From Geosiphon pyriformis (lineage: Eukaryota; Glomeromycota; Glomeromycetes; Archaeosporales; Geosiphonaceae): a stretch of DNA of 64,000 nt. The DNA is taken from positions 263,155 through 327,154 of the forward strand of contig JAAOMT010000096.1 of assembly GCA_016748015.1 (NCBI GenBank), in the 5' to 3' direction. The translations under genes were made by a program, and so were the position numbers. The notes under the pieces were generated by a model. That model was given only the letters and a program-made list of their open reading frames with translations, searched no databases and was not told the origin of the DNA. Below, one piece after another: positions 21,747 to 64,000 of this stretch. The number at the start of each line of letters is the position of its first letter. Position 1 is the first letter of the stretch.

Positions 21747-21782
<36 letters not shown>

Positions 21783-39100: not shown

Positions 39101-40076
39101 ATAACTAAAAACTCAATCAGATTTAAAAACTTTTATATTTTTATTATAAATTTTATTTTCAGTTTTTAAGATTTTAAAATTTTAAATATTAAATACTTTA
39201 ACTTAAAAAATCTTAAAAAGTTTTTGTTTATTGTTATATTATAATTATATAAATAAATATATTTAAAAAAATTTTCTATTGTATTAATTAAAATATTTTT
39301 TAACAAACTTTAAATTACTTAAAGCTTTAGTTTTTAAAAAAATTAGTTAAATATTAGAGTTTTTTATTAAAATTATTTTATTTTATTAATTTTATATTTT
39401 TAACTGTTTTTATTATTTTATTTTTGTTTTTTTTCAATTTAAAAATCCAACAAAATTTTTGAACTTATATTAATTAAACAGTTTAATAATTTTTATTTAA
39501 AGTTGTATTAAAAAGTTTTCTGTTAACAAAAATATACTTAATAGTTTTAAAACTCTCTCAAATAATATTTTATGTTAACAAAATAGTCTTTGGACTTTTT
39601 ATAAAACTTATATGGTGTTTTATTAAATTTTTATTAAATTTTTTAATTTAATTATAATTTATTTACTATTAATCTCTAAAATTTTGCTAATATATTTGAA
39701 TTATATTATTACTTTAAAATTCAAAAACTTTAATATTTTAAAATCTGTTTTTTATTCAAAAATATAATACATTTTTTAGATTAACTTTAATAATAAAAAA
39801 ATTAAATTGCTTATTTTTTATTGTTAACAATATTATTTTGTTTTATAAAATTGTTTTTATTTTAAATATTATTTGTTGCAATTTTTTAATTTAAATTATT
39901 TATAAAAACAATAACTTAATTTAGCATTTAAAAAATTTTATTTAATTATTAAATTTAAAATTGTATTTAAAATCATTAAACTTTTATTTTAAACTAGTTA
40001 ACTTTAAACTATAATTAAAATATTAAATACTTTATTAAAATGCAAATTCAATATTATTTTTATATTTTCATTAAAA
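33200..40076. other. A+T desert, gene-free
   Basis: Nearly 7 kb of almost pure A and T with very rare G or C. No frame looks coding. By analogy with the eroded repeat copies B and C this is probably transposon-derived DNA at mutational saturation, but no specific element could be recognised in it. The desert is interrupted by LINE copy 1 and resumes on its other side. Confidence 0.7.
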
Positions 40077-40226: not shown

Positions 40227-42037
40227 ATGAAGAAGACTGTTAAAGTTTCTGGTTCTGAGAGTGGTTTCAAGATGGTTGCGTCGAGAAAGAAAAGGAAGGG
40301 AGATGTATTGGCAGAAGATATTGATAATAGAGGGGTTGCTGCTGAAGCTTTTGGTGCTTGTTCATAGGGTTCTGAGACAGGTGATACTACTGAGTCTGAA
40401 AGTATTGACATGGAGAAGAAGTGCTTGGTTGAAGAAACCAGTGTTGACTATGGTGAGAATGGTGCTTTCGCAGAAAGAGATCCTAATCAAACACCAAAAG
40501 GTTTGCATGTAATGATCAAAAAGGTGTTAGGGAAGTCTCTGGGTGTGATTAATTATGGTACTGTTAATACAGATGATGACATGTTAGACAATTTTTTTCT
40601 TCTCCTGCCCCCTCTACCTATCAAACTGACCATTAAAGTGCTTGTTCACAAATCTTTTGCTTTAGATATTGATCTTGTGGCCATTGCTGAGAAGTCCTTT
40701 CAGGAAAAATTGAGTTTTATCAGAAAAATTTTTTCAAGTGTGAATGGTTTTGGGGGGGGGCTTCTACTCCCTCAAAATTTGGTAAAATTATTTGTGCAAT
40801 TTTTACTTCAGAAAAGACAATAATGGCTGCTGAGAAGTTGACAAATGATTGTGGTAAATACCAATCTCAAGTGCTCTGTAAACAACTGTATGAATCAGGC
40901 AATTGTGATGAAAGAAATTCCTGTGGGAACTTCCATGGAGGCTGTGCATGCTGCCATGTTTGAGTTTGGATTAATTAAGTCGATCAAGATGCAATTGGTG
41001 GGTCTGTGGCAAAAAGTAATTGTCAAATTAGAAGATCAGAATTAGGCTGATCTCTTGGCATCTAAATGGTCTATCCTCATTGGAAAGAATGCAGTATGTG
41101 TGACCAGGGCCAATGTTGACAAACAGATGTGGAATTCCAGAGATGAATTCAGAGCACTGCTATACACTCTTTCTGTAGGGACAAATGCTCATGACCTTTG
41201 GGATTTTGTTGGTTCGGTTAGTGAGAAAACATGTGTCATTGATTGTAATCCTGTTAGCTATGTCCATGCTTGCTGTGCTACTGTTTGCTTTGGGTCTGAA
41301 TCTGATCTGATTAGTGCAATGATTACAACCCCAGTTATAAAAGGGATTGGTCTTCACTGGTCTTGCCTCTCTTTGGCACTATGCTCAGTCTGCAGTCTTC
41401 TTGGTCATATATCTCTCAATTGTGTTTTAGTTAAGGTTGATTCAACCCTAAAGGGCAGAAAGACACCTCTTTCTGCTCGGGATCAGGTCAGATTGGCGAC
41501 TATCTACACTCAGAAGTCCACGTCCATTTCTCATCCATTGGTCTTCAGTGGTAAGACTTGGGCATCAGTTGTTGGTGCTCCTCTGGAGTGCAGTTTTTAT
41601 GGTGCTGGTTCACTTTTTGGTTCTGACAATATTGGTAAATCTCTCTCTTCTGTTGTGGATGATTTGGAAAAGTGTTTGGTGAATATTGAGAGTGGTCTCA
41701 TCAGCCTTATAGAACAAATTGGTGAGTTGGCTAAGAGGTTGAATTCACTTGTGCTGGCAGTTTTCCAGCCTAGCCCTGAATGTCAACTGCTGGTGACCCC
41801 CCCCCCCCATCACAGAATCAAGGAGAAAATATAGTGATGGAAGTGGGCTTGGGTGAGACCATTGGTGATAAGACTGCTATTGCTACTGCTATGGTAAAAG
41901 ACTTGTCTGCATTCCCCCATATTGTCAAGTTAGAGAATATGTTGAAAGGCCTTACTGCTTCAGTACTGAGTTTGTCTGCTCATTTTGACAGGTTGGTTCT
42001 GGCTGGTAGTATGATTCCACAATCTCCTTTCCAATGA
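40227..42037 (+). pseudogene. LINE copy 1 ORF1: nucleic-acid-binding protein, broken
   Basis: ORF1 proteins coat the LINE RNA and act as chaperones. From ATG at 40227 the frame meets TAG at 40365 and TAG at 41043, each one C-to-T change from CAG, and shifts frame at a G9 run (40752-40760) and a C12 run (41797-41808), with another shift near 40.85 kb. A zinc knuckle, CSVCSLLGHISLNC (C-x2-C-x4-H-x4-C), lies near 41385-41425, preceded by a region alignable with LINE copy 2 (MKEIPVGTSMEAVHAAMFEF and a following VGLWQK). The last residues before TGA 42035-42037 overlap the ORF2 start in an ATGA arrangement. Confidence 0.8.
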
Positions 42038-45000
42038 GTGGTATTATTTGGAAAATTGCTACTTGTAATGTTAGAGATATGAATGTTCCTGCTAAACAGA
42101 ATGATATTGTTTGATGGCATAAGAATATGGACAATTTGGTTTCGATTTTTACAAAGACTAAGTTGAAGGATAAGGTTTGTTCATAGATGGCCACCAAATT
42201 TGGTGGTGTTCAAGTTTTCTCTTCTGGTTTGAACTCTGGTTATGTGAGTGCTGGTGTGGCGATTGTCATGAACAACTTTTTGGCTAAACATGTATGTAAA
42301 GTTTCTGAGGTGCCAGGTTGTTTTCTTTGTATCAGATTACTTTTCAAAAATAAACTTTCGGTTTCAATTTTGGGGCTCTATGCTGGTGCCTCCTTGACTG
42401 TCCAATTTTCCCAGGCTGTTGAGATAAATTCTCTGATCGCAAAGGCTGTAAATGAATTTTCTTTTGTTATCCTTGGTGGTGATTTCAACGAAGATGGTTC
42501 TCATAGATGTGCTAACTTTAAGAAATGTTTTGATTTGGATTTAGTGAATTCTCTGGGTAAGAGTTTCTTTGTAAAGACATCCACATGGTATAACTCTCAT
42601 GGTGTTGAAAAAACAATTGATTTTGTTTTTATATCTTCAAATTTGGTTAATGTGGTAGTGGATCGCAGTGTGACTGATGTCTTGGAGCACTTTGATACTA
42701 ATCACAAAGCTGTTACTGTTTCTGTGGAGCTGGGGGGTCTTTTGGATGTACACCTCTCTTCACTCTACAAACAGACAAACAAGAACTGTTAGAAGTTTGA
42801 TGTTAAAGGTGCTGATAATCTGAAATAGTGTGAGTTTAAGGCTGCCTCGGCTGCCAATGCTACTGTGCTTTTGGATGCTTTTGATGTGGCTCAAAGGTTT
42901 TCAGATTTGGATGGATTGTGGAACATTATTCGCAAAACTATGACTTTTTCAGCTGATGTGTCTTTCAAAAAAAAATGGTTTAAGGATTATGATAGTGTTT
43001 TCACTAAAGTGTCTTCTCGGTTCCACAAGTTAGAATTGTTGGTGTCCAAGCTGGTAAAAGCTTCTTATTTAGCTTCCTGTGAGAATTTTGAGTTGCTGTT
43101 GGAAACATGGGACAAACTTGATCCTGTGGGTGCATCAGAGGTAAAGTCCCTGTTTCTCTCGGGTTCTAGTTTTGATGTTGTTCATTCTGTTCTGGCCAAA
43201 ATAAGAAAATCTTACCACTCATCCAAGTGCTGGAGTCCCAGTGGGCTAAAGAATCACGTATTAAGCAAGCTGTTGACAATAGGATGGAGAGTTTTGAGTT
43301 GGATAAGAGTCATATTATCAGAAATGTGTTAGAGTGTCCTTTTCGCAAAGTGGTGTTAGATCATTTGATTGTGGATGATGAGCTGATCTTGGAGCCTAAG
43401 TTGGTTAAATCTAAGGTAGATAAGATAATAGAAGGATGAACTCAGAAGTGTCTGACTTTTCAGATGATTGGAGTCATTAATATAAGCTCTTGGATTATGT
43501 TTTTGATGGTGCTTTTTCTGATGTAATGTGCATAATTGGTTTTGATGAAATGTTGGCTGTTGTTTCAAATCTGCCTGATGGAAAAGCAGCTGGTCTCTCT
43601 GGCATTTCAAATAAATTGTGGAAGCACTGTAACAAATCAGTTTTGGATATGCTTTTAGTGCTCTTGAATTGTTGCTTGGTTTGTAAGTCTGTTCCTGGTC
43701 CTTGAAGGGAGGCCTGGATCTCAATGATTCCTAAACCATATGAGTGGAAGGGTGTTCTTACAAACACCCATCCCATTGTATTGATAGAAACAGCCTGCAA
43801 GATTTTTTCCAAGATTCTCTCGGACAGGATTTCTTTAGCTTGCAGCAAGTTTGATGTTCTTTGTGGTGATAACTTCTCTGTTTTGAAAGGTATGACGACA
43901 CAGTCCCTCATTTTTGCCATTGGTTCTGTGGTTAAAGATGCTTTGGAAAAGAATCGGGAGCTGTGGCTGGTTTTACAAGATATGCATAAGGCCTATGATT
44001 CTGTTGGTTGGGTACATCTCAGAAGGAGTTTAGTTAGGATCAAAATGTGTGACAGGTTCATTAAATTTTTTGGTGGAATTCACAATGGTCATATCAACAG
44101 GATGATGACTGACTTTGGTTTGACTAATAGATATTATATTCATGATGGTTTGGATCAGGGAGAAGTTTTCTCACCTCTTTTGTGGTGCATTTTCTATGAT
44201 CCACTTTTGTGTGAGGTCAAGTGACAAGAGAGTGTTTGTGAATACAGGTTAAATTCTCATTTTATTTCCAAAACTGGCCAGGCTGAATCTCAGGCTGGGT
44301 TGACTTTATTTTTTACAGCAAGTGCTTTTGTTGATGATACCATATGAGTTGGTAGTAGCCAGGCCGCTACACAGCACATACTCAATATAGCTAGTGAGTT
44401 TTTTGAATTTAATGACATTTCTATTAACAATGATAAGACTGTGGTTATTCCCATCAACTGTTGGGTCGAGTTCTTATATCTAACTGTCAGTGGTTCACCA
44501 ATTTTTATCACCAAAAAGGGAGAATCTCACCATTATTTGGGCATTTTTTTGTCATCTAAGGGTTTGTTGAAACCTAGTTTGGCTAAGGCTCATTTGGACA
44601 TTCAATTTTTTGTTAATCTTGTCATGAAAAAGACAATTTTGGATAAGCAGTTTGTGTATTTGGTGTCCACAGTTCTCTTTCTGATTGTTGGCTACAGGAC
44701 TCAGTTCAGCTATATTCTTCTTAGTGTGTATAATAAGTGAGATGTTTTAATTCAAAAGGATCTGAAATCTAAATCTGGCCTTCCACATGACTTTCCGAGT
44801 GATGCAATCTATCATCCTTCTTTGTATGGTTTAAAATTTTTTGAGCAGATCCAGGCTAAAAACAAATCTGCTTCTGTGGTTTCCTTTGCTAATTCAGTTG
44901 GAATCTTAGATTGGTTGTTTTCTCACAGGTCTCATGATTTTCAGGTTCTCAGTTGGTGTCCTCATTACCCTTTGGTGTTCCTGACTTGTATTGGCATCAC

Positions 45001-46682
45001 CCTTTCAAATAGTTTTTTGGCTGGTGTAGTCCATATTTTTTCTGGATGTGATTTGTCTTTAGACAATTCTCCGTCCTATGTTTTTTGTTCTCAGTAAGCC
45101 AAATTTTCTCAAATGTGTCTTCTTGCTCAAGCATTATGGTATTGCATTTGTGGAACAGCTACGTGATCGAAATGGTGTTGTTTTTAGTTGGAAAGCTTTC
45201 AAGCGTTGGAAGAGGCTGGATTTCTGTGGACCTGTTTCTTTATGGTTTGATCTCTCTGTTCATTTTTTCAGTGGTGCTGTGCCTTCTTCTGTTGACTCTT
45301 TGCTTGGAGAAAGTTGTGCCTTATTTGATGTTTGTCAATCTCGCAGTTTTGGTGTTGTTTGTAACAATTTGTTGGTTATTAACATAGCTTGCCTTTCTGT
45401 GTATATGGACAGGTCTCTGAGTGGTTTAGGAACTCGTGATATAAAGGCTGGTGCTGCTGTTTTTTTTGAGAACATTAATTCAGATTTGGGCATGAGCATG
45501 TCCAGTATGATTTCTTCTATAATAGTGGAGTTGCAAGCTATCTTCTTGGCTCTTGAGTGTGTCCTCTCTTTTTGTTCAGTTAACTTGTTCTCAGACAGCC
45601 AGGCTGCTTTGGATGCTTGCAAGTCTGAGTCTCTGCTGGTTTGTCCAGATTTTAGAAATCAGTATTGGATTGAATGTCACCATATTGTTAACATTATTCG
45701 TTGAAAAAATTTGGATGTGAATTGGATCAAAGTTAAAGGTCATTTGGGTATCCTAGGCAATGTGCAGACTAATGCATTTGCTAAGAATGCTGTCTCTTCT
45801 TCTTGGCAGCTGCCCCATATAGTTGGTGAATGTTTTTTGAAGACTGGTAGTACTGCAATATTTGGTAATTTGAAACGTTTTGTCTGTGGTGTTTTCCAGT
45901 CTGTTCATTGAGCACATTGAGAGATTGGCTCTGGTTCTGGGGTTGTAGTGAATAGTTTGTAGGATGAGATTGATTGGTCCAAGTCTTTTTTGGTATGGCA
46001 CCCAAATTCTCACATGGCTGCTGGTTTTACTAGTGTGCAAACGGCTGGCTTTTGGACATATTTCATGAAGACCCTGCACTGTCATCTTCTTGTTGCTGTG
46101 CATAAGCACCTTTATAATAAGTATTACCCTAGTGTGGTTTGTTTGTTCTGTGGCAATATCGAGGTTTTGAACCATGTCTTTTCCTGTTTTTTTGAGGCTG
46201 CTGGTCATGCTCAATTGATGGACATTCATGTGGATGCCTGGGCGGCACGTTCTGGTTTGTCTCATTCTTCTTTGTGTGTTTCTCAGTTGTTGTCGACTTG
46301 CATCTTCAATGTGACAATTGGTATGGCTCTGTATAAGGGCTTTGTTTTCAATGATTTGTATCATGAGTCTGTTTCTGTTTACAAGGATCCTAAGGTGGTG
46401 GTCTTTAATGTTGTGAATTTTGTTTACAAGTTTTGCCTTGCATTCCATGATAAAATCTGGCTGGTCTATGCGAGACACTGGGCCATTATGGAGAAAAATA
46501 GGCTGATTCTACATGATGGCTCTGTCCCTGTTTCCGTTTCTGGTTTTGCTTCCCGATTTTTGGCTGGTGTAATTAGGTTGTTAGGTGTTGCTGATGCACT
46601 CGGCATTAGTTTTAGGTTTCACAAGCCTTGTTTATTTTTTGCAGGTATAAGTGACATGGTTTCTGTTGGTATAAATGTATAG
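42034..46682 (+). pseudogene. LINE copy 1 ORF2: endonuclease, reverse transcriptase, RNase H, broken
   Basis: ORF2 would nick the target, copy the RNA and degrade the template. The AP endonuclease (42034 to about 42770) shows TCNVRDMN, VILGGDFNEDG and FDTNHKAV; the catalytic Glu of the TETK block reads Lys. The reverse transcriptase (about 43490-44740) shows DGKAAGLSGI, LVLQDMHKAYDSVGW, GLDQGEVFSPLLW and an intact catalytic FVDD at 44327-44338. RNase H (about 45400-45880) shows YMDRSL, VELQAI, SDSQAAL and KVKGHLGILGN. A finger, CLFCGNIEVLNHVFSC, lies at about 46140-46190. At least seven stops break it, several matching Trp or Arg codons in the sister copies (TGA 44345-44347, TGA 44738-44740). 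Confidence 0.85.
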
Positions 46683-46816
46683 TGTTGTTCTGACTGGTCT
46701 GAGTGGCTGGTCATATATAGGAAAAGCATGATTCATGCCCAGTTTAGATCATTTGAATGATGTATAGTTCTAAGTAGCATTTGGACTTCACTTGTTAAAA
46801 GAAGGAAAAAAAAAAA

Positions 46817-46824
46817 ATTAGAAT
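46817..46824 (+). repeat. Target-site duplication of LINE copy 1, right
   Basis: ATTAGAAT, matching 40077-40084, immediately after the A-rich tail. Confidence 0.7.
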
Positions 46825-47835
46825 TAAATTATATATTATTATAAAAAAAACAAATTAACAAAAACTATTTTGGCTACAAATAATATAAAAAATATTAATA
46901 TATTTATCTAATTAATTGGTAATTTAAAATTATATTTAAGCTTATATATTTTCGAATTTAAAATAAAAAAAAAGAATTTAAATTAAACAAAAAAACACTA
47001 AATTAAAAACTTTTTTTGTATTTTTATTTATTAATCAAGTTCAAGTTTTTTTATAAAAAGTAATAAAACAATTAATAAAAACAGTTTTCTTGATATAAAT
47101 TTTAATAAAATTTTGTTTGTTAATATTAAACAAATATTTTTTGGACTAAGTTGTTTTTTTTTAGCAAAATTATATTTTTAATTAAAACAAATAATGACAT
47201 ATTAATTTTTACATAAATAAAATTTTTTTATTAATAATATATATATTTTTATTTATAAAAACCAAAATGTTTTACAAATTAGGTTTTTTAACAAATATAT
47301 AATAAAACATTATATATTTTTTAACTTATAATACTTTATTTATATTAACTTTTACAATATACAATATATATTTTTAATTAAAATAGATTATTTAAAAGTT
47401 ATTAAATTAATTTAATTTAATTGTGCATATTTATAAAACTTAATTAAATTTAAAAAATAGCTTTTATAATTTCTTAAAAATATTGATTAAAAAATACTTT
47501 TTAATTTATATAAAAATTTATGTGCTTAAAATTATTATTTAAAATTATATTATTTCTTATAATTAACATTTATATTTTAGTTAATTTAATATAAATATAA
47601 TTTTAAGAAAATAGAAATTTTTTAATACAAATATTTTTTTTAAAAAAAATATTTAATAATAATATTTATATTAAAATTTTAAACTTTAATTATTTTAATA
47701 AATTTTTTAAAAAAATTGGTTTTAATATTTTTTATATTAAATTTTTTAAGCTATTAAAAATTTTTTTTTATTACAAAAATATTTTTTATATTATTAATTT
47801 TAATTTTAATTGTTTTATTTTTACTTATTTTATAG
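46825..47835. other. A+T desert between LINE copies 1 and 2
   Basis: About 1 kb of almost pure A and T without recognisable genes. It joins the 3' ends of two LINEs that point toward each other. Confidence 0.65.
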
Positions 47836-47882
47836 TTATTATTAAAACTTTTACTTTTTTAATATTATTTATTTATTTAGCT
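47836..47882 (+). repeat. LTR-like repeat, copy B, left piece
   Basis: Sequence around ATTAAAACTTTTA and TTATTTATTTAG matches the start of copy C at about 57310-57352. The match breaks where LINE copy 2 begins and resumes on its far side at 54796, so this is the first part of a repeat cut in two by the LINE. Confidence 0.6.
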
Positions 47883-47894
47883 ATAAGTAATTAT
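47883..47894 (+). repeat. Target-site duplication of LINE copy 2, left
   Basis: ATAAGTAATTAT here pairs with ATGAGTAATTAT at 54784-54795. The single difference is an A/G transition. Confidence 0.7.
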
Positions 47895-48025
47895 TTTTTT
47901 TTTTAAAATTTAACAAGTAAAATTCAAATATCACCTAGTATAATACATTATACAAATGATTTAAACTAAGTGTAAATTATGCATTTTCTATATATAACCA
48001 GTTACTTAGATTAATCAGGACAATA

Positions 48026-51000
48026 CTAGGCATCAATATAAACAGAGACTGCATTCTCTATACCTGAAAAAAACAAACAAGATTTACAAAATCCAAAACT
48101 CATACCCACTGCCTCAGCTACACCCAGTAATTTAATCATGCTAGCTGAAAACATTAAAAGAAAACCTAATACTGGAACAAGAATAAAACTATCATGTAAA
48201 ATCAGACTGTTTTTTTCCATAAAAGCATAGTGCTTGGTATGAACCAACCAAATATCCTCCCAGAATACAAGACAGAATTTGCATACAAAATCCACAATAT
48301 AGTAACCTGCAATCTTAAAATCTTTGAAAACTAAAACAGACTCACAAAACTAATTATTAAAAACAAAACTCTTAGACAGTACTATACTAATCATAACATT
48401 GAAAACACAAGTGGACAACAACTATAAGACACAAAAAGAAGAAAAAAGTAAACCAGAACATACACCCCAAACAGACACATAAGTATTTAACAACCAAGCA
48501 TGACCAGCAGCTTCAAACAGACAAAAAAAGGCATGGTTAGATATCTTAATATCACTACAGAACAAGCAAACCACACTGGAGTAATACTTATTATATAATC
48601 ACTTACACACAGCAACAAGAAACTAATGATGAAAAGCTTTCATAAAATACATTTGAAAACCAGTAGTCTGTTTACTAGTAAAACCAGCTGCCAAATAAGA
48701 ATCAGAATGTCATACCAAAAATGATCTTAACTAATCAATCTTCACATACATACTATCTGCCACTATTTAAGAACCAGAACCAGTTTTCCAATATGCACGA
48801 TTAACAGACTGAAAAATTCTTCGAGCAAAATATTTAGATTTACTAGAAACAACAATATTATCAGTCCTAAGATAACTTTTACTAATCAAATAAAATAGGT
48901 GCTAATTGGAGACAGCAGCTGCTTTGGCCAACATATTAGCATGCTTATTGCCAGAAATGCCAGAGTAACTCCTAATCTTATGCCATCTAACATCTAAATT
49001 TTTGTGATGAATAGTGCTCACAATGTGGCAACATTCAATTCAACACCAATTTTTAAAATTCAGGTGAATAGACTTCAAATCCGACCTACACGCATCCAAA
49101 GCAGCCTGGCTGTCCATAAACAAGTCCACAGAATGAAAAAAGGGAACACACTCAAAAGCCAAAACAATAGCTTGCAGTTCTGTCATAGTAGAAAACAACA
49201 AACCAGAAACCTGCACACTCAAATCCAAATTAACATCCTTAAAAAAAACAGCTGCACCAGCCTTTATACCAAGAGTTTTTAAGCCACACAAAGATCTATT
49301 TGTATAAACTAAAAGATAATCCACATTAGCATACAGCAGATTGTCTTTGACAATATTAAACTCATGAGACTGTAAAATATTTAAAGAACTATTACCATCT
49401 GAAAGAGAAGAATTAATAGAGGAAACAGTAACACAACCAAGAAATTGAACAAAAAGTTCAAACCAAATGAAAACAGGGCTATGGGGGTCTAACTGTTTTC
49501 AATGCTTAAAAGTCTTTCATTCAAAAACAGCACCACTTTGGTCACATAGCTGGTCCACAAAAGCAATACCATAATGTCGAAGTGAAGAGACACACTTAAT
49601 ATAAGTCAACTCACCAAGGACAAAAGACATAAGAATCTCATCCTGAAGACAGAAAGCACTGGCCAGAGAGTTGTCTAAAGACAAATCATATCCAGAAAAT
49701 ATGTGCACTATATCTGTCAGAAAGTTATTTAAAAGGTTGACACTAACACAAGCCAGGAACTGTAAAAAATGAAGTAAACACCAGCTGAGAACCTGAAGAT
49801 CATGTGACTTATGAAAAAATAACTTGCCTAAAATACCAACCAAATTTGCAAAGGAAATAACTGAGCCAATTTGTTTTTAGCTTGAACTTGTTTAAATGTC
49901 TTCAAACTATACAAAGAAGAATAATGGATCACATAATTGGAAAAATCAAGTGGAAAACCAGATTTAGACTTTAAGCTTCTGCAAATAAGAGCATCCCATT
50001 TATTACACACATCAATAAAAATAAAACTGAATTGAGTTCTGCAACTTATGATTAGATGAAGAACAGCAGACACCAAGTACACAAACTGTTTATCTGAGAT
50101 CCCCTTCCTTAAAACAAAATTGACAAAAAATCAAACATCCAAATAAGCCTTAGCCATACTAGATTTTAACAAACTCTTAAAAGACAAAAAGATACCCAAG
50201 TAGTAATGCAACTCTCCTTTTTTGGCAACAAAAATAGGCAAGTCACTAATAGCTAGATAAAAATTCTTGATCTGACAGTTAATAGAAATGGCCACAGTTT
50301 TGTCATTATTGATGAAAATGTCATTAAACTGAAAAAATTCACTTACAACATTGAAAATATGTTGTGTAACAGCTTGGGTACTACCAATCTAAATTGTATT
50401 ATTGACGAAAGCACCAGCAGCAAAAAACAAAGTCAACTCAGCCTGAGATTCTGCTCTGCCAGTTTTGGAAATAAAATAAGAATTTAATCTATAACCACAC
50501 ATACTATTTTGCCTTTTAACTTCACACAAAAGTAGATCATAGAATATGTGTCATAAAAAAGACAAAAAAACCTCTCCTTGATCCAATCCATCATGAACAT
50601 GGTACCTGCCAGTTAGACCAAAATTTGTTATCACTTTGTTAATACAACTATTGTGAAGACCTCCAAAAAATCTAATAAATTTGTAACATATCTTGATCTG
50701 TGTTAAATTTTTCCTGAGATGTTTACAACCAACAAAGTTATAAGTCTTATATATGTCTTGCAAAACCAGCCAAAGTTCTTAATTCTTCTCTAAAGCATTT
50801 TCAATAACAGAACAAACAGCAAAAATGAGAGATTGTGTTATTGTATCTCTCAAAACAAAAAAGTTATTCTCATAAAAAATGTCAAAAGTGCTACAAACCA
50901 GAGAAATTCTGTTAGAAAAAATCTTGCAGGTTGTTTCAATCAGAGCAATAGGATAGGTATTTGTAAGAACACCCTTCTATTCATAAGGTTTAAGAATTAT

Positions 51001-52690
51001 TGAAATCCAAGCTTCTTTTTAAGATCTAAAAGCTGATTCACAAGTCAAACAAAAGTTCAAAAGCACCAACAGCATATCCAACATTAATTTGTCACAATAC
51101 TTTCACAATTCATTTGGGATGCCAAAAAGACCAGCAGCCTTCCTATTTGGCAGATCTAAGACCACAGCAGACATTTCATCAAATTCAATTAGACACATTA
51201 CATCAGAAAAAGCACCATTAAAAATGTACTCCAAAGGCTGATATTGGTAAGATTAATCATTAGAAATATCAGATACCACTTTATGTTTTCTAATCCAATC
51301 TTCTATGATCAAATTCATCTTAGATTTGACTAAATCTGGCTCCAGTACCAACTCATTATCCACAACCAAATAATTTAGCACCACTTTATAAAAGAGACAC
51401 TTCAAAACATTCCTGATAGTATAATCTTTATCCAATTCAAAATTTTCTATTTTTTTATTAATGGCTGTCTTGATGCAGAACTTTTTTGTACACCTGGACT
51501 TCATCAATTTTGAAGAGTGATAGAACTTTCTTGTCTTAACCAGAGCTGAGTAAATTGTGTTAAAATTAGACCCTGAAAGAAACAAAAATTTTACTGTCAA
51601 TGCACCAGCTGCATTAAGTCCATCCCATACATCCAACAGTGCTACAAAACTTCCACTAGAAACCAAATAGGAAGCTTTAACCAACCTAAACACCAACAAT
51701 TCCAGCTTATGAAACTTAGAAGATCTCTTGGTGAAAATCTCATTATAATCTTTAAACCATTTCTTTTTGAAAATTTCATTAGCTGAAAGAGTTATTGTTT
51801 TGCAAATGATATTTTACATTGCACCCAGATCTGAAAACTTCACAAAGACTGTAAACTCACTGGAAAACATTGTTGCATTGACTGCTGTGGCATCTCTGAA
51901 ATTATTTCATCTTGTATCATTAGCACTCTTAAAATCAAATTTCTAATAGTCTTTATTAGCTTGCTTGTGAATAGAGTTCAACTGTATATCCAAAAGCCCA
52001 CTTAAATCCACAAACACAAAAATTGCTTAGTGATTAGTGTTAAAGTGTTCACTAACATCCACAACATTGCAATTCACTACTGTATTAATCAAATTTAAAG
52101 AAATGAATACATAATCAATTGTTTTTTCTGAACTCTTTGAATTATTTTAAGTTGGAATTTTTGCACACAGACTCCCTAACAAAGAATTGACCAGCTCTAA
52201 ATTGAGACACTTCTTGAAACTTGCACATTTGTAGGAACTATTCTTATTAAAATTCTCATCCAATATAACAAAAAATGATTCATTTATGGCCTTAGCTATC
52301 AGAGAATTAATATTACCAGTCTGAAAATAACAAACAGCCAAAGAGGCACCAGCATAAAGCCCCAGAATTGAAACAGAAAGTTTATTCTTGAAAAGCAACT
52401 TGACAAAGAGAAGCTGGCCAGACACTTCAGAAACCTTGCATACATGACAAGCCAGAGAAGCATTTATAATGATTGCCATCCCAGCACCAAAAAACTCCTT
52501 GTCCAATTCAGATGAAAAAACTCTAATCTTACTGAACCTATTCTTGATCCATGGCCTACAACTAGATTTTAATTTTGTTTCTGTAACAATCAAAACCAAA
52601 CTCCCAGAATCCTTGTGCCAATAGATAGTGTTTTTCTACTTGAAAAGAACATTAATACCACAAACATTACATGTAGTAATCCTTTATACA
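48026..52690 (-). pseudogene. LINE copy 2 ORF2, broken, catalytic residues lost
   Basis: The endonuclease (about 52690-52147) keeps TCNVCGIN and TETKL, but the GGDFNE block reads DENFNK. The reverse transcriptase (about 51250-49830) keeps GLDQGEVF, but the first catalytic Asp of YDSV reads N (TYNFV), and the FVDD box reads FVNN (50398-50409), followed by TAG where copy 3 has Trp. RNase H (about 49320-48900) keeps MTELQAI and MDSQAALDAC, but YTDGS reads YTNRS. The C-terminal part ends at TAG/TAA before 48026 with FFSGIENAVSVYIDA. Every one of these key losses is a G-to-A type change. It cannot be active. Confidence 0.82.
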
Positions 52691-52700
52691 AAATCACTTA

Positions 52701-54648
52701 TTAAGGAATAAAAGAAGCCAATGAACACAAAACAGAACACAAACAATCTAACCTCTCTAAAACCAATTCAACCGACACTTCCAAAGCCACTATCTTAGAT
52801 TTCAATTCACCCATCTTAGTGGTCAAAATTTTAGAGCTGCTCAAGCTAAGATTAGTAACTATGTCCACAATGACCAAAAGGAAAGAGGCAAAAGATGTCA
52901 ATGTATTATCAAGAATCATATCTGAATTTAAATTAGAGACCAAACATGTTTGAGTGACTGGAGAAGATAAATAAGATGCATTTGTCTGGGGCATCAACTC
53001 AAAAAAATTCAGCTTTTTCATGACAATAGAAATCTGATCTGACAAAAGCTTCAGAAAATGTTCTAAAGAAGCCAAATAATTAACCAAACAAGAATCATCA
53101 AGAGAATTAGGGACCATTAAAATGGGTTTTGCACTCAACAACACACTAGTACCAAAAGAGTCTGATAAGATAGCATAAGCAGAAGAATCACTAGCAATCT
53201 GGGCCCAAGTCTTGCCACCAAAAGAAACTGGATGAGCAATAGGCATCTGCATCTTTTTATAAATATTGACCAAGTAAACATGATTCTGAGAAATTACCAC
53301 CCACTTATCATGACCACCAGAATTTTTACCAGTCAAACACATATCAGAAATATGACCAAATTGTTCACATTTGGTGTAACAAGCCAGAGAAAGACCAGCT
53401 CAACACAAATTCACATCCTTAAACACTAAAGTAGAACCAATAACAGCCAATCTAAATGTTTTATTAGTAAAACACACTATCACACATCTATTATGCACAT
53501 ATAAATTGGGATTACAGCTGATGAAACAAGTTTTCCCACCATATAATTCTAACAAACCAAACAAATCATAAGCTGTGATTCCAACTGGAAGAGTATACAA
53601 TAGAGTCTAATAATGGTTTCTTGTTACTCATAATTCTTTATTATTAACAGCCAAAGCCACACATACTGAATTTTTTCTTATGAAAACTGATCATTTAAAC
53701 ACAACCAAACTAGCCACATTTGATGATTCATATTCTACTAAGACCTTTTGCCAAAGACCAATCAGTTGTATTTTGATTGAAACAATCCTGCCAAATTTAG
53801 AAAAAACAGATTTCACAGCTGATTTGAAAAGATCCATTGGGATTTCCTTCACAACAATTTCCTAATTTGAGTATTTGTTTATCTGCCTAACATTATTATC
53901 GACTAAGATTTTTTTACTGATGGCTATTTCTTTAGCCTTTTTCAAACTAATTTCGAAGGTAAAAGTAGATCTAATAATGCCAGGAAATTTTGAAGGAGTA
54001 AAAGCTTTCCCAAAACCATCTACTTGATAAAAAAATTTTTTCACAGTAATTAATTTATCACCAATAGTTTTGTCAGGCACAGCTTTCAACTCAATATCTA
54101 AAGCAAACAATTTAACTGGATTAAATTTTTAAACAGAGAGGGCACATGACTTGGCTATTGACAACTGCTTAGAATCAGCAAACTTAGAAAAAAAAAGACT
54201 CAACACATTATTATCACTATCTGTAATTTCAAATGATGGAGCTTTCGATGGGTTGCCCAGCATGTAAGTACAAGTGCAAGTTTTTTTTAGCATGGTCTCA
54301 TCTATTTCTTTGTCATTACCTAATTTAATATAGCTGGTTTCCTCAGCAATTGTGTTCACCATATTTTTGACATCTAAGAGACTGCATACACTGTTAGCAA
54401 TACTGCTGATATTGCTTTCCCAAAAACATTACAGACTTAATGCCAAACATGTCAACATCTACTATATTCAGTGAGCCAACAGACAAATCGACTAAGGCAC
54501 CACCCATTTCTGGTTTTTTTGGGTTTTTAAATGACGCACTGCGAGAGTAGATACTCTCTACTTGCTTCTTTTTGGTATTAGGGCAGGTCCCCAAACCAGC
54601 CAAGCCAGAGCCAGAATTACCAACAGATGTGTCTACTGGTTTTATCAT
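52701..54648 (-). pseudogene. LINE copy 2 ORF1, broken
   Basis: It starts at ATG 54648 with MIKPVDTSVGNSGSGLAGLG, a Gly/Ser-rich leader, then MGGALVDLSVGSLNIVDVD, matching the style of Glomeromycotina LINE ORF1 proteins. Stops and frame changes break it into five pieces. The zinc knuckle at about 53345-53390 reads YTKCEQFGHISDMC: the first zinc-binding Cys is Tyr, one G-to-A change from Cys. SFGGKTWAQIASDS near 53200 matches VFSGKTWASVVGAP of copy 1. Two stops (TAA TAA) end it just before the ORF2 frame. Confidence 0.8.
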
Positions 54649-54783
54649 AACAAATAAAGATATATACAAAAAAATAACTAGGGAAGAAATAGGGAAAAGA
54701 GAAAAGAAATAACAATAACTTCAATATATATTTCACTTTTATCATAGTCAGAAGATTAACAAGAGAAAAAAATTTTTTTAATT

Positions 54784-54795
54784 ATGAGTAATTAT
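54784..54795 (+). repeat. Target-site duplication of LINE copy 2, right
   Basis: ATGAGTAATTAT, matching 47883-47894 at 11 of 12 positions. Confidence 0.7.
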
Positions 54796-55280
54796 ATATA
54801 TTAATTATTAATATTATTAATTAACTATTTTATTTTTAAAAATAATTATTAATATAATTATTGATTTAATTTTTAATCTTTATTTAAAAGTATATAAAAA
54901 TTCATTTAAAGATTAATATAATAATATGATTTTTTATTTTTTTTCATTATTTTTATTCTTTTTTCTTTTTTTAATTTGTAAAATTATTAGTTTTTGTAAA
55001 ATATATTGAATAAATATTTATTAAAAAATAGAATTAATATTTAATATTAAATTTTAAAAATGTTAATATAAAACATATGTTATTTTTTGTTAATAATATG
55101 AATTATTTCTTTATTTTCAAATTTTTTTGTTATTTTTTGAAAAAAATAGTGATTAAAATATTTATAAAACTGATTTTATATATTAAATTTTTATTAATTT
55201 AATTTGTTTATTAAAATTAAATTATTTTTTTAATTATTTTATTATTATATAATACTGTTTTTTTTTAGCATATTATATTC
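54796..55280 (+). repeat. LTR-like repeat, copy B, right piece
   Basis: It continues the repeat cut by LINE copy 2. It has two clear 12-bp units (TATTAATATAAT and TATTGATTTAAT at 54847-54870), TATATAAA at 54891-54898 and AATAAA at 55009-55014, then a tail sharing AATTATTTTATTA and ATATAATACTGTTTTTTTT with copy C. Almost all G and C positions of copy A are A or T here. Confidence 0.65.
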
Positions 55281-57299
55281 AATTATAATATAAAAAAAGT
55301 GTTTTTTATAAGATTTTAAATTTTTAATTTATTATTATTATATTGGCAATTATTTTTTTTTAACACAAAAAACCTATTACAAAAAAAAATTTTATTAGAT
55401 AATATATTTAAACAAATATGACTATAATATTAATTATTACAAAAAAATAAACAATTAAAATATAAATACTTTATTCTAATTGGTTATTTAGTGAACAAAA
55501 CAGATTAGCAATAATCAATTAAATTAATTATTAATAAAATACTTTAAATTAAATATAACAATAAAATTTTAAATAAAGAACAATATTTATTAAAATATAA
55601 TATATATATTAATTTTTTAGCAAATATTTTAGAAAAACAAAGACAACTCAAAAAATATTAGCAAAATATTATTGGTTAATTTTAAAAAATAATATAATAA
55701 AATATATTAAAACTTATAATATTTATTAATAAAAAAATAAATCCAATTGAAAAAAAAAATATTTATTCAATTTTTGTTAATCAACTTTTTAACAAAATTG
55801 AAATTAATATTATTAGATTTTTAATAATAATTCTTAATAAAAACAAATATATTTTAACAAAAACAGATTATTTAATAAAATAAATCAAAACAAAAACAAC
55901 TTCAAATTAAATTACTAATTTTATTTATAAAAAAATTATAAATAAACATAAATATTTTCAAAAATTATTTTTAAATAAAAAAATGTTTTTCTTAATTTAT
56001 TGGTAAAAAAACTTTTAAAAAAATTTAAAATATATTACAAATTTTATTATTATTATTATTTATAGACTAATAAATTAGTAAAATATTTTAATTAAATACT
56101 TTGTAAAACTTTAATAAAAACTAGTAAAGAAACAAATCAATAAAACAAAGTTTTGTTTATAGTATTTTTTATTTATAAAACAGTAAATTATAATATAATA
56201 GGCTATAAATTCTTTTATTTACACTATAAGTATATAGCAATTTTACTTATTAAAACTATTAAAATAATATAATTAAACTTAATTATAAAAACATTTTGCA
56301 AAAAAAATATAAATTTTTTTGGTAAAAACACAAATAATAACTTATAAAAAAATAAAAATATTCCAAAAAAACTCAAAAAAAAGAAAATATATAAAATGTT
56401 TTTTATAAATATTAGTAACTTAATTCTTAAATATTAATTAGATTAAAACAATATTTTTGATAACAAATTTTCAAGTTAATAGAAAAAACTATTTATAATT
56501 AATAAAGTATTAAACAAAAGATTTTATATTTTATATTTTATAAAATTAAGATAAAACAATATTTAATAATTAATTAATTTATAGTATATAAATTAAAAAT
56601 TATTACAAAAATTTTGATTGGTTATTAATTGTAATATTTATGATATTTATTAATAAAATACCAAAAAAATTATAAAAAAGTTATTTTAATCTCAAAACAA
56701 ACATATTTTTAATCAAAATATTTAAAATATTTTTTTTAAAATTTATAAATATTAGATAAATAATTATTTAAATATTTTGCTTATTATTAGAAAACAAATA
56801 ACAATTAAAATTAAAATTAAAATATACTTTGTTATTAATTCACAAACTGTCACAAAAAAACAGAAAATTGTTAACAAAATAAAAAATTATATATTTAAAT
56901 ACATAATTGTTAAAATACTTTTTTTTTAATATACTTAAAAGAATAATAAAATTTTTTTGCTTATTAATAAAAATTAGTTATATAAAAAACAATTTAAATA
57001 TTATGAAAAACTTGGTAAAGTCATTAAAAATATAAAGCTTTTAAAAAAACAATTTCAAAAATTCAAATAAAAATTTTAAGTATTATATGTTTAGATATTT
57101 TAAGAGTTTTAACTATTATAAAAAAACCAAAATACATATACAAAAATTTGATTTCTTAAGTTCAAAATTAATATTGTCATAGTTTTTTTATATTTTATTA
57201 GTTAAAAATTTTAACAAATTAATTAGCTTTAAGATAAAAACTTTAAAATTTTACTTAAATAAATTTATTTTGTTAAAACTCAATTTTTTTAAAGTAAAT
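55281..57299. other. A+T desert between repeat copies B and C
   Basis: About 2 kb of nearly pure A and T with no recognisable coding. If B and C are the two LTRs of one element, this would be its eroded interior; alternatively they are independent solo copies. Confidence 0.55.
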
Positions 57300-57920
57300 A
57301 AAATTATAATTAAAACTTTTATTTTTTAATATTATTTATTTATTTAGTTATATTTATTAGTTATTAATATAATTAATTAATTATTTTAATTTTAGAAATA
57401 GTTTTTGAATAAATTATAATTAATAACTTAATTATTGATTTAATTATTAATTTAGTTATTAATTCGATTATTAATCTAATTAACCAAATTATTAATATAA
57501 TTACTAAATTAATTACTAATTTTTTTTAAGAGTATATAAGAGTTTTCAAAATATAAAAATTTATTCAAAACAAAAATCAATACAATAATTTTATTTTTTT
57601 ATCTTTTTTTAATAATTTTATTTTATTTTTTAATTTATATAATTATTAATTTTTATAAAGTATATTAAATAAACATTTATTAAAAAATACAAATAATATA
57701 TAATATTGAATTTTAAAAATACTAACATAAAATATAAAATTATATTAGTGTATTATTTTTTGTTATTTTTAGAAAGAATAACAACTAAGATATTTATAAG
57801 ACTATTTTACATATTAAATTTTTATTAATTTCATTTGCTAATTAAAGTTAAATTATTTTTTTAATTATTTTATTACTATATAATACTGTTTTTTTTTACT
57901 ATTTATTAATGTATTATATT
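57300..57920 (+). repeat. LTR-like repeat, copy C
   Basis: It has a 12-bp array (57421-57525), TATATAA (57533-57539) and AATAAA (57668-57673). It aligns with copy B over its full length, including left sequence lying beyond LINE copy 2, and more loosely with copy A. It has the same orientation as A and B. The ends are approximate. Confidence 0.65.
57421..57525 (+). repeat. Eroded 12-bp tandem array (consensus TATTAATTTAAT)
   Basis: Units in register are TAATAACTTAAT, TATTGATTTAAT, TATTAATTTAGT, TATTAATTCGAT and TATTAATCTAAT, then one 9-base unit, then TATTAATATAAT, TACTAAATTAAT and TACTAATTTTTT. The consensus equals that of copy A with TGACC changed to TAATT. Confidence 0.8.
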
Positions 57921-60900
57921 TAATCATAAAAATATAAACTTTTTTAAAAAATAATTATTATTATTGTTATAATCTTAATATTTTTTTAATAATATTGTTA
58001 AAACCAAATTTTATTTAATTTCTTTTTGAATTATAATTTTATTAAAATACTTAAAATAACCAATTTTTAAGTAAAAATCTGTAAATATTATATTAAATAT
58101 ATATTAGATAAAATAGAAAATAAAAGAAAACTTTGCTTTTTTTATGATTTAAAAATTAATAAAAAAAATTATATTAATAAAAATAAAACTTAAAACAACA
58201 ATTTATTATTTTTTATAATAAAATTAATAATTCAACATTATATTAAATTAATTTTTACAATTTTTACAATTTATACAATTGTATTTTAAATAAAAATTAT
58301 TATTAATAGCTTTAATACTTAAAAAATTTTCTTAAAATTAAAACTTATTAAAAAAAGTTTGAATTTAATTGTTATTTTCTTAAAAAATTAATAATTAAAC
58401 TATTTTTTTCCAGATTAATCTTTTTTATTGCTATTTAAATAATTAGAAAACAAAAAACAATTCTATTTTTTTCAAGTTTAATTTAACTAATTTTTTAAAA
58501 TATCAAAAAAATACTTTTTTTGATATCTTTTAAAACAGTATTTTTGATTTAAAACTTATTTTTTATTTATAAAACATAAAATATTGTTATTATAATAAAA
58601 AAAATTGACCAATTACAAAAAAAATATAACTAATATATAATATCAAAAAATAATATAAAATAACATACAATAATTATTAATAATATAAAATAATTATATA
58701 AAATACTACAAAACAACATAAAATAATTTAAAATAGCTATTAATAATAACAAAATATTATAAAAAATAACAAAAAAAATAAGCTTTTAAAAATTACTTAT
58801 ATATAAATAGTTTTAATTTAAAAAAATATTTAAATTAAAATATACATTTAATCTTATTTTATTTTTTAATAATAATAAAAATATTTTTATAATAATTTAG
58901 AAATTATTATTGAAATTTAATTTTTGTTTTTATTTAAAGCCAAATATAAATTATATTATAGTTTTAAAATTATTATATAAAACAATAGCTTTTAAATATA
59001 AATATTAATAAAACATAATTTTTATTTATGTATTTATTTATTTTTAAAAATCAATAGTTAATTTAGAAAAACCAAAAAATATAAAAATAATTTAACTATT
59101 AAAATAAATAGTTTGATATTATAATAAAATAATTTAATATTATAATAAAAAACAGAAATATACTATAAAATTAATCTTATTAAAAATTTTTAACTTATCA
59201 AAAAAATAATATTAAACTTTAATAATCACAATTAAGTAATATAAAAAAAACTAAATAATATTATTAACAAATATTATTACTATATTAATATTATTATTAG
59301 TAGATTTTTACGTTTTTTAATACAAAAATTACAATACATACTGTAAAAATTACTATTAAAATCATGTAAAAAAAATTTTAACAAAATAAAAACACTAATA
59401 AAAATTAAAAATTAATACATATAACTAATAATAATAGGTTTTTATTATGTTTTAAAATTTTTATACACTTTTATTAATATTTTAAATTTGTAATTATTAT
59501 TTAAAAAAAATTATTAAGAAATATAATTATTTAATCTATTTTTAATTATGTTAATTATAATTATAAATAGATAATAATTATATAAATCTAATATAATTTA
59601 GCTATATATACAAACTTTTTATTAATTTAAAAAAGTATTAGTTTTATATTAAGCCAATTTTTTACTATAATTTTATTATAAGCAATTGGTTTTTTAAATA
59701 TGTTTTTTTATAATTATATTTTTTTTTAATTTTTTATATATTTATTATTAATTTTTTAAGTTTTTTATTACTTATATTTCTTAATAAATATATCTTTTAA
59801 TAAATATATATTATTAATATTTTATATAATGTTTTATTTATTAAACAAATTATTAATTTTATTATTTAATTTTATTTTTGTTATAATATTAATTAAATAA
59901 TTGTTAAAAAAATATTGTTTTATTATAGTATTTTAAAATTAATAAAACTAATTTAATAATGTTTTTTATTAATTCTTTAGATAATTTTTTTATATTTGCT
60001 TGCTAAATATAAGTTTTTAAATATTATATATTTTTAATAATAAATTAAAAATATTTTAGTTGTAACTTTGTTAATTTAGTTTTTAAAAACTTATAATAAA
60101 CTGATTTTTATTCAAAAATAAACAATAATAACAATATTTTTTTTGTTTTAAATATTTAATTTAACAGTTTTTTGTTTTTTCAAATATTAAATAATTTATA
60201 TATATATATTTATAATAATATTGTTTAAAAAAATTACTAAATTTGTAATTTTTACTGAATAATAATATACTTAATCTATAAAATACTTTAATATTTCTAT
60301 TTTTTATAAAAAAAATTTATAAATAAAACACAAAATTAAATTAATAAAATTTTTAAAAACTAATATTATATAAAAATATTAAAAATTATAAATATTTTTT
60401 CAAATAAGTTATTAATAATAATATTAACTTTTTTATTTTTTTCATATTTTTATTAATTTATTATATTTTTACCAATTATAATATTTAATCTTAATATAAT
60501 TATAAACAATAGTTTTTTTATTATAAATAATAACAATAATAATAATAATAACATATTTATTAAAATTAATTTTAATTAATATGTAGTAAATTTTCTTAAT
60601 ATTTTAAATTTTAGTTAATTTTTGCTGATTTTAAAAACAAAACAAGTTATATTTTTACATATAATCTTATTTAATTAGTTTATTAAGTTATTTAATAATA
60701 TTTAAAAAATAATTTCAAATTATTAAAAGTTTTTTTAAAAAGTAATTTTATTTTTATATATAATAAAACTATAAAATTAAATTAATTTATATTAAAATTT
60801 ATTTTTATTTTATCTAGTTTTATTAATTTAAAATTAATTATCAAAAATATTTTTAAAATTACAAAGTTTTTTGTAATATGTAAATTTATTATTGTTTTTA

Positions 60901-61202
60901 TTGTTACTGTCTTTTGTAAAAATATTTTAAATGTTTTTGGTAAAGTTTTTATTAATTATTAGTTAAAAACAACATAATATTATGTATTTTAAATTTTGTG
61001 TACTTTTAAATATTGTTTAGTATATTAATTAATTTTGGTTTAAAAAAAACAATATTAAAAAAATTTTTAATTATAAGATATTTTTATTTTATAAAATTTT
61101 TATTTAAGTTTGTAATTTGTTTTAAATATTTGAAAATTGTTTAATTAATTTAAAAACTTTATACCAAAATTATAACTTTTTTTGGTTTTTTAATTTATTG
61201 TT
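57921..61202. other. A+T desert
   Basis: About 3.3 kb of nearly pure A and T with no gene or recognisable repeat, ending at the tail of LINE copy 3. Confidence 0.65.
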
Positions 61203-64000
61203 ATTTTTTATTTTTTATTAAAGAATTTAACAAGCAAAGCCCAATTACTATCTAGTACATAAAGCCAAACTAAAAGGCTCAAACTAAACATGACTTATGT
61301 GCTTACTACATGTGGCTAGCCACTCAGGCCAGTTAAGGCAACACTACACACCTATAATAACCTGTACATTACCTCCCAGACCAGAGAAAAAACTACATGG
61401 CTTCTGATGACCAAAGCTAACAGCAAAAAACTTAGCCATACCAAGCAACCTAACAATACCATCAGAAAACAAAGAAGACACACCAAGAAAAAGCCCAAAA
61501 ACAACACTACCATTCTGAACCAAACCAGTCTTTTTCATTACCACCCAATGGCTAGATCTTACCAACCACACCCTAGCATAATGCAACTCAACAATAAACC
61601 TTATAAAGTCAACAATCTGAGCAACAGCCAATTTTTGGTCATCAACAATACAACAAGCCTCTCTAAGCCATTCATCCAGCACAAACTCTTTGCATACCAA
61701 AGCATACAATCCAACATCAATGGAACATTGAGATAGTACTTATAATACAGCAGACGAAAAACAATCAAAAACACCAGCCACAGCAGACCAACGAGCAAAA
61801 GCCTCAACCAAGATCTCATTGTGAATGTTAGACTCACAAACACAAATAAAAGCATGGTCAGAAAACTCCACATCATCACACAACAAACACAGCACACCAG
61901 GATAACATCTATTATACAGCCTCTTCCTAACTGCCACTGGCAATCTTCTGTGCACAGCTTTCATCATATAAGAGCAGAGTGTTGAAGACTTGCAACTAGT
62001 GAAACCAGCAAGCATATAAGAATCAAGATGCCACACTCTTGCAGTAGCAACCCAGTCCACACAACCAATCATCACATCTGAAACCACATTGCAGCCAGGA
62101 CCAGCTTCCCAACAAGCATGACAAACAAACCGAAAAATATCCTGGACAAAATGACAGACATTACCAGAAACAGCAGTATCTTCAGCAACCAGAAAGTGTT
62201 CACACACATTGACCAACAGCAAAAAGAAAGACTCAAAGGCAGCCCCAGCAGCCAAGTCAGCTCTTACATTACCAAAAATCCCAGAATAGTCTTTTACCTT
62301 AGTCCAACTCATATTAAGATCCTTATTCCTGACCAAATTAAAAATGTGATGCCTCTCAAGCCAGCATTGATTACAGAAATTGGGGGTGGCAAGAAACATC
62401 TCAGATATACATGCATCAATGGCAGCCTGACTGTCAAGATGCAATATCACAGTACTAGAAGAAGTGATACACTCCAAAGACAAAGCAACAGTCTGTAATT
62501 TGGCCATGGTAGAAAACAAAAGACCCCAAACTGCAACACCAATGCTCAAATCTAAGACTAGAAAGTATGCAGCAGCCCCACCCACAACTTCAGTAGAGCC
62601 AGTATTCTTCAAGAACCCATCTGTATAAACCTCAAAAAAGCCCAACCAAACATCATGCAATCTATTTTTTATAGCAGAAAACTCACTAGACCCCAATACA
62701 TTCAATCCACGTAGCTCAATAGAACCAAGAGTGCCAGATAACAAGAACCTCTTATCCAGAAAAAACTCAGATGCAACCACAAACTAATGAGATACAGGAC
62801 CATGCAAATCCAATCTCTTTCAATGGCAAAAAGTCTTCCAATCCAACAAGCCACCTTTTTTATCAAAAAGCTGATCACCAAAGACAACACCAAAATGTTT
62901 GAAAGATTTGACTGAATCAAAATACAGAAACTTTCCAAGAATAAAAAACAAAAAAAAATGGCCAGAACTATGAAAAGCAGTGGGGAGATTGTTCGCCAAA
63001 GACAGCTCATTGTCCAAAAAAATCTTAACCAACCCAGCCAGAAAATTGTTCACTGAACTAACACATAACCTAACAAAAAACTGCAAAGGGTCCAGAGGAG
63101 CCCAACCCAGAACTTGCAAATCCAGAAATCTATGACTAAACAAATACCCAAGAATATCAGGAGTATTAAAGAACATTATCAAAGCAGCCACCTTCCCTTC
63201 AGACTGCACCTGCTCAAAAGGTTTTAGGCCATACAATAAGGGATAATACAAAGCAGCATCAAGAAAGTCATGGGGAAGACAAGTTTTAAACCTAAGGCCC
63301 TTTCTAACCAATACATCTCACTTGTGACAAACACTAGAAGGGACAAAGCTAAACTGAATACAATAGCTGACAATAAGCTGCAAGACAGCCAAAACCAAAT
63401 ACAAAAACTGCTTATCCATAATAGTCTTTTTAAGCACAATGTTAACAAAGAAACGAATATCAGCATGAGCTTTGGCAACACTTGGTTTGGACAACCCCTC
63501 AGTAAACAAAAAAATACCTAGATAGCAATGTGCCTTATCTTTCTTAGCAATTGAAATAGGCTGCTCACAAATACTTAATGAAGCAACTTTAACACCCTGA
63601 TTGATGGAAATAGCCACAGTTTTTTTATTGTTGATAGAAATATCATTGACCTCAAAAAACTCACTGGCAATGTCCAAAGCGTACTGAGTGAAGGCTTGAC
63701 AATTCCCAACCCAGATTGTATCATTAACAAATGTACCAGCTGAAAAATACGAGGTGAGACTTCTACCACTCTCAATCCATCCAGTCTTTAAAACAAATCT
63801 AGTATTAATTTAATATCTACATAATTGTTTGTGCCTCTTGATTTCACTCAAAAAAGGGTCATAAAAGATCCTCTACAGAAGAGGTGAAAAGACCTCACTC
63901 TGATCCAGTCCATTATGTACCCTATAACCACTAGACAAACCAAAGTCAGTCATCATCCTATTAACTCTGTCCTTGTAAATACCACCAAAAAATCTAATGA
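61203..64000 (-). mobile_element. LINE copy 3, 3' part, cut by the window edge
   Basis: The 3' end of a third LINE in minus orientation: an A-rich tail (T-rich on the plus strand, about 61203-61224), a 3' UTR ending in CTTGTTAAA like the other copies, then ORF2 from its C-terminus back into the reverse transcriptase. It has fewer stops than copies 1 and 2 but belongs to a more diverged subfamily. The 5' part lies beyond the window. Confidence 0.85.
61344..64000 (-). pseudogene. LINE copy 3 ORF2, partial, broken
   Basis: The reverse transcriptase part has FVND (63720-63731) in place of FVDD, followed by an intact Trp (TGG 63711-63713) where copies 1 and 2 have stops. RNase H (about 62650-62250) shows VYTDGFL, HLDSQAAIDAC and WTKVKDYSGIFGN: the catalytic region Asp is kept, but the Glu block reads MAKLQ and the His of KGH reads Tyr. 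The C-terminal finger reads CLLCDDVEFSDHAFIC (about 61890-61840). Stops at TGA 63318-63320, TGA 62820-62822 and one TAG near 62785 all match Trp codons of a sister copy. Confidence 0.82.

Follow-up and report, generated by a model that had tools for sequence, protein, structure and literature searches.

The 64,000-nucleotide stretch of Geosiphon pyriformis DNA analyzed here (GenBank assembly GCA_016748015.1, contig JAAOMT010000096.1, positions 263,155 to 327,154; below, the window) carries three long interspersed nuclear elements (LINEs) whose reverse transcriptase (RT) active-site boxes read FVDD, FVND, and FVNN. The original prediction, made from the letters of this DNA, took them for sister elements caught at successive stages of one directional process. 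We found instead that the two catalytic aspartates are replaced by asparagine independently of each other and repeatedly across the family, under a mutation spectrum that is biased toward AT, alike on both strands, and fastest at CpG. The three boxes are very probably those of dead copies that have decayed by general AT-biased mutation together with methyl-CpG deamination. Thus, the DD-ND-NN appearance looks like an ordinary kind of decay and not like a special ordered process.

Three degenerate LINE copies and their active-site boxes

The copies and their boxes lie in the window as follows.

40368..46780 (approximate ends), + strand: copy 1, a degenerate LINE of the apurinic/apyrimidinic endonuclease (APE) type, from Pfam, the open reading frame (ORF) list, and alignment to copy 2
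44327..44338, + strand: RT box FVDD of copy 1 (TTT GTT GAT GAT), with an in-frame TGA three codons downstream
47950..53399 (approximate ends), - strand: copy 2, a degenerate LINE, sharing 69% identity with copy 1 across 4.8 kb
50398..50409, - strand: RT box FVNN of copy 2 (TTC GTC AAT AAT, read 50409-50398)
61344..64000, - strand: copy 3, the 3' part of a degenerate LINE that continues past the window end, from ORFs at 61344-63809 and alignment to copies 1 and 2
63720..63731, - strand: RT box FVND of copy 3 (TTT GTT AAT GAT, read 63731-63720)

The three boxes were read directly from the sequence and stand where they had been predicted. Copy 1 has, in broken frames of the ORF list, a CCHC knuckle (found by eye), a putative endonuclease, an RT, and a ribonuclease H (RNase H), the same order as in APE/RT/RNase H LINEs (I/Tad/R1-like). 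Its RT domain matched Pfam RVT_1 over the cut-off (3.9e-11), as did those of family copies L031 and L023. The copy 1 match to Exo_endo_phos_2 (E value, 2.9e-4) was below the curated cut-off, and this domain was not seen in L031 or L023, both of which are cut short upstream. RNase_H was over the cut-off in L031 (1.4e-10), below it in copy 1 (3.6e-4), and unmatched in the pieces of copies 2 and 3 submitted to the Pfam search. The family also has sequence matches to Protein Data Bank chains of L1 ORF2p and R2. Even copy 1, with its intact FVDD, is dead, given its broken frames and a TGG-to-TGA stop three codons after the box.

The further lesions that had been cited as running in the same direction are real. 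At the protein level, copy 2 has Tyr in place of the first Cys of the CX2CX4HX4C knuckle of copy 1 (YTKCEQFGHISDMC versus CSVCSLLGHISLNC), and the endonuclease Glu is Lys in copy 1 (FTKTKLK) compared with copy 2 (VTETKLK). The RNase H Asp has become Asn in copy 2 (VYTNRS) and is kept in copy 1 (YMDRS) and copy 3 (YTDGF). However, this list is one-sided, in that C>T on the sense strand occurs as often per site (0.081) as G>A (0.074).

With only 65 to 71% identity between any two of them by BLASTN, the copies are not sisters. Among the matches listed from the 124.7-Mb genome (406 contigs), copy 1 has four relatives elsewhere at 88 to 89% identity over 1 kb, copy 2 has several at 80 to 82%, and the best protein relative of copy 3 is at 81%. 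The three copies thus come from different subfamilies and are not stages of a single decaying lineage. The family is large, with 4196 first-look candidates, of which 150 were scored.

Independence of the two aspartate sites

To count box states throughout the genome, we searched for a single degenerate 29-base pattern that includes the box. This gave 258 DD, 88 ND, 101 DN, and 41 NN boxes (n = 488), and the reversed control patterns gave 0 matches each. Because the pattern needs the remaining bases to be kept, these counts leave out boxes with further decay or divergence; copies 2 and 3 themselves fail it, and copy 1 fits only the TGA version. Of the 488 boxes, 129 have Asn at the first site, 142 at the second, and 230 at one or both, so the states of the window copies are not the unusually clear case they had seemed. 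NN is expected 37.5 times under independence and was observed 41 times (odds ratio, 1.19; Fisher P = 0.43). Likewise, ND and DN do not differ in number (P = 0.38). An ordered DD-ND-NN path is ruled out by the independence of the sites and the equality of these two classes.

For trees and counts, loci were taken best scoring first: 70 of the 150 protein matches and 30 of the 40 relatives of copy 1, both samples including window copies, plus 8 of the 40 relatives of copy 2. L009, L039, and L069 proved to be the window copies again and were left out of the trees, and L001 to L008, the best RVT_1 matches, had no match to the RT pieces and were left out of all counts. Among 109 aligned copies, the nucleotides at the two sites were GG in 60, GA in 20, AG in 18, and AA in 11. 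On the tree of these copies, parsimony required 22 changes at the first Asp and 21 at the second; the successive stages proposed earlier thus give way to two sites that change independently, many times, and in both orders. Most G-to-A changes at these sites in the 70-copy tree fell on tip branches, 7 of 11 at one site and 7 of 10 at the other. Asn states clustered on the tree less than the states in the majority of comparable G/C columns (ranks 64 and 76 of 90), and inheritance of Asn in large clades was not supported by the clustering tests.

Mutation spectrum, sequence context, and candidate causes

To obtain the mutation spectrum, we aligned two groups of 30 sequences with trees (29 loci plus copy 3 and 29 loci plus copy 1) and polarized tip-branch changes by parsimony, excluding columns with at least 30% gaps, sites whose parent state was ambiguous, and changes flanked on both sides by other changes. 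The tip totals were 2730/33904 for C>T, 4061/55070 for G>A, 785/43501 for A>G, and 852/75728 for T>C. In these 60 sequences, GC-to-AT changes (7097/88974; 0.080) exceeded AT-to-GC changes (1873/119229; 0.016) 5.1-fold per site, so the GC-to-AT excess on which the original prediction depended is borne out. Since homoplasy at fast sites makes parsimony reverse some changes, 5.1 probably underestimates the ratio. The corresponding counts in the three window copies were 144:47, 35:18, and 80:13.

In all 16 trinucleotide contexts, the rate was similar to that of the reverse complement, which indicates that the process acts alike on both DNA strands. Transitions at CpG ran at 0.171 and 0.178 on the two strands versus 0.060 to 0.089 at other dinucleotides, about 2.4- to 2.8-fold faster. 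By context, C>T was 0.171 at CpG, 0.089 at CpC, 0.075 at CpA (801/10667), and 0.064 at CpT. The earlier suggestion of a methylation-linked or RIP-like (repeat-induced point mutation) process fits these rates in its CpG part, but not at CpA, which lies between CpC and CpT. CpG holds 15% of all C>T and G>A changes (1045/6791). GpA is faster than GpT or GpC, and on the sense strand TCA reaches 0.098 and TGA 0.105. In L010 to L068, TpC/GpA transitions outside CpG were about 1.5 to 2.3 times faster than those at ApC/GpT and GpC, with both strands similar.

The loss of the RT aspartates largely follows this local context. On tips, the second Asp changed G>A in 6/45 cases versus 84/539 at other ATGAT sites, and the first in 12/57 versus 58/596 at TTGAT and 19/91 at TCGAT, a little high for the mixture. 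In the 70-copy set, the second Asp changed in 7/61 cases versus 47/499 at codon-first TGA, and the first in 4/23 (CGA) and 3/36 (TGA). The pattern counts agree, with Asn at the first site in 48/109 boxes after a preceding C and 40/237 otherwise (the GTC part of this count was done by eye). Among 203 G/C columns of the 70 copies ordered by decay, the sites stand at about 31st and 44th place, with ties. By these rates, counts, and ranks, decay does not single out the catalytic sites. The agreement of the second Asp with its five-base context rules out a hotspot or selection there; the rate at the first Asp is slightly raised.

Substitutions on tip branches were near neutral, with observed/expected counts of 428/340 synonymous, 632/708 nonsynonymous, and 30/42 stop changes, while internal branches were more constrained (199/114, 179/257, and 5/12, respectively). 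Such a pattern is typical of a small number of active lineages whose new copies decay after insertion. GC content was 0.426 to 0.444 in six copies with long open frames and 0.39, 0.33, and 0.39 in window copies 1, 2, and 3; the equilibrium predicted from the rates is 0.165. Copy 2 has the lowest GC of the three (0.328 over 48001-53500) and the longest tip branch (0.178), the three branches being from separate trees with different sampling. These two values may support "more Asn with age" in a loose sense, from which no order of sites follows. GC content averages 0.25 across the window; the first 40 kb, with their genes, have 0.24, and the AT-rich stretch separating copies 1 and 2 has 0.09. The 4-kb blocks 36001-40000 and 56001-60000, near LINE copies, have 9 to 10% GC against the window mean of 25%.

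Our preferred explanation, general AT-biased decay with a methyl-CpG component, would work as follows. The three boxes belong to inactive copies of different subfamilies within a large family of APE/RT/RNase H LINEs, and the host genome is AT rich. Each copy, once inserted, would decay separately and nearly neutrally, mostly by C-to-T and G-to-A changes that affect the strands alike, with a rate raised about 2.4- to 2.8-fold at CpG and moderately at GpA/TpC. Because the Asp codons lie in fast contexts, (C/T)GAT and ATGAT, GAT-to-AAT is among the commoner lesions. DD, ND, DN, and NN would then be four outcomes of two independent chances, with odds set by the age of the copy. Mammalian L1 decays after insertion in the same way, with one-by-one inactivation, a transition-rich spectrum fastest at CpG, and constrained active lineages; unlike in L1, most of the bias here lies outside CpG and the host is very AT rich.

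Several observations weigh against this explanation. Because the loci are top similarity matches, the trees do not sample the family at random, and the spectrum comes from LINE copies alone and may hold a repeat-directed component. The first Asp rate of 12/57 equals the CpG rate, though CpG occurs at this site in only some copies. On the 109-copy tree, Asn states show slight clustering, with 21 changes versus 27.2 in shuffled data at the second Asp (1 in 1000) and 22 versus 25.9 at the first (26 in 1000), and in the 70-copy tree parsimony assigns 4 of the G-to-A changes at one site and 3 at the other to internal branches. Asn boxes inside long open frames, as in L031 and L028, do not fit either. 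Finally, at the Trp three codons after the box (44345-44347 in copy 1), where DD boxes have TGG in 258, TGA in 56, and TAG in 11 cases, TGG-to-TAG (11/269 DD boxes) is three to four times rarer than context predicts. Tip changes there numbered 1/60 versus 197/2974 at like sites for the first G and 3/57 versus 144/1531 for the second. This shortage of nonsense changes means either that the box is not perfectly neutral or that context is finer than five bases. TGG-to-TGA at the same codon is commoner, at 56/314 boxes.

RIP-like mutation, in which duplicated copies are recognized and C changes to T mainly at CpA, would fit the roughly 5:1 GC-to-AT bias that both strands of this repeat family show, and Neurospora RIP likewise makes C-to-T changes on both strands. 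RIP requires a RID/DIM-2-type methyltransferase. Unlike in Neurospora, however, CpA is not preferred in this LINE family (0.075 versus 0.089 at CpC, 0.064 at CpT, and 0.171 at CpG), and CpA preference is what RIP-like defenses share according to a 2025 survey (PMC12543289). The family is also large, with frames of more than 1000 amino acids in some scored copies, and Dallaire et al. (2021; PMC8647823) describe RIP signatures as not detected in Gigaspora margarita or Mucoromycotina. We therefore consider RIP very unlikely. The same paper reports methylated CpG on transposable elements of Rhizophagus irregularis, which, together with the CpG rates on both strands and 10 matches to C5-methyltransferase domains (PF00145) in the genome, 5 of them without stops, speaks for methyl-CpG deamination, though the same domain search was positive in 10 of 14 control genomes. 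We accept deamination as a contributor, but as the sole driver it is refuted and scarcely credible, since CpG accounts for just 15% of the transitions and the second Asp is never in a CpG in the pattern, yet is Asn in 142/488 boxes. An APOBEC-like editor of the first complementary DNA strand would leave sense-strand G-to-A changes in GpA context, and the quoted lesions all fit G-to-A, with GpA faster than GpT or GpC. But C>T (0.081 per site) matches G>A (0.074), and sense-strand TpC is raised equally (TCA, 0.098; TGA, 0.105). Strand symmetry thus refutes a strand-specific editor, which we regard as next to impossible. Repair of AAT and TAG codons by A-to-I RNA editing is an unnecessary assumption given the equal C>T load.

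A different kind of explanation is that Asn variants are tolerated or inherited, with catalytically dead elements spreading by means of enzyme from others. Long open frames with Asn boxes (L031, FVDN, 1066 amino acids within the locus; L028, FVNN, 828 amino acids), the slight clustering on the tree, and the excess of missense over nonsense changes in the box are consistent with it. However, that clustering is weaker than in most comparable columns, and 7/11 and 7/10 of the G-to-A changes lie on tips. We regard this explanation as extremely improbable. We read L031 and L028 as freshly inactivated. There is a slim chance that the open-frame subset with Asn boxes has been kept and spread by enzyme acting in trans, or that the mutational pressure, acting on both strands with a CpG and TpC rather than a CpA preference, is a repeat-directed system other than RIP.

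The striking case of three copies thereby gives way to a spectrum measured across a large family of LINEs in an AT-rich host, with the caution that a few divergent dead copies do not give ordered stages. If the CpG part reflects methylation, the family could serve as a record of past methylation in this lineage.

Other genes in the window

Three further genes are listed below.

8155-9371, + strand: gene with an F-box N terminus; the C-terminal part has no Pfam match
20941-22351, + strand: gene for a membrane transport protein (Pfam Mem_trans, PF03547), split over two adjoining open frames, perhaps two exons
30911-32216, - strand: gene with an F-box N terminus; the C-terminal part has no Pfam match

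By eye, the C-terminal parts of the two F-box genes, which lie on opposite strands, are alike.

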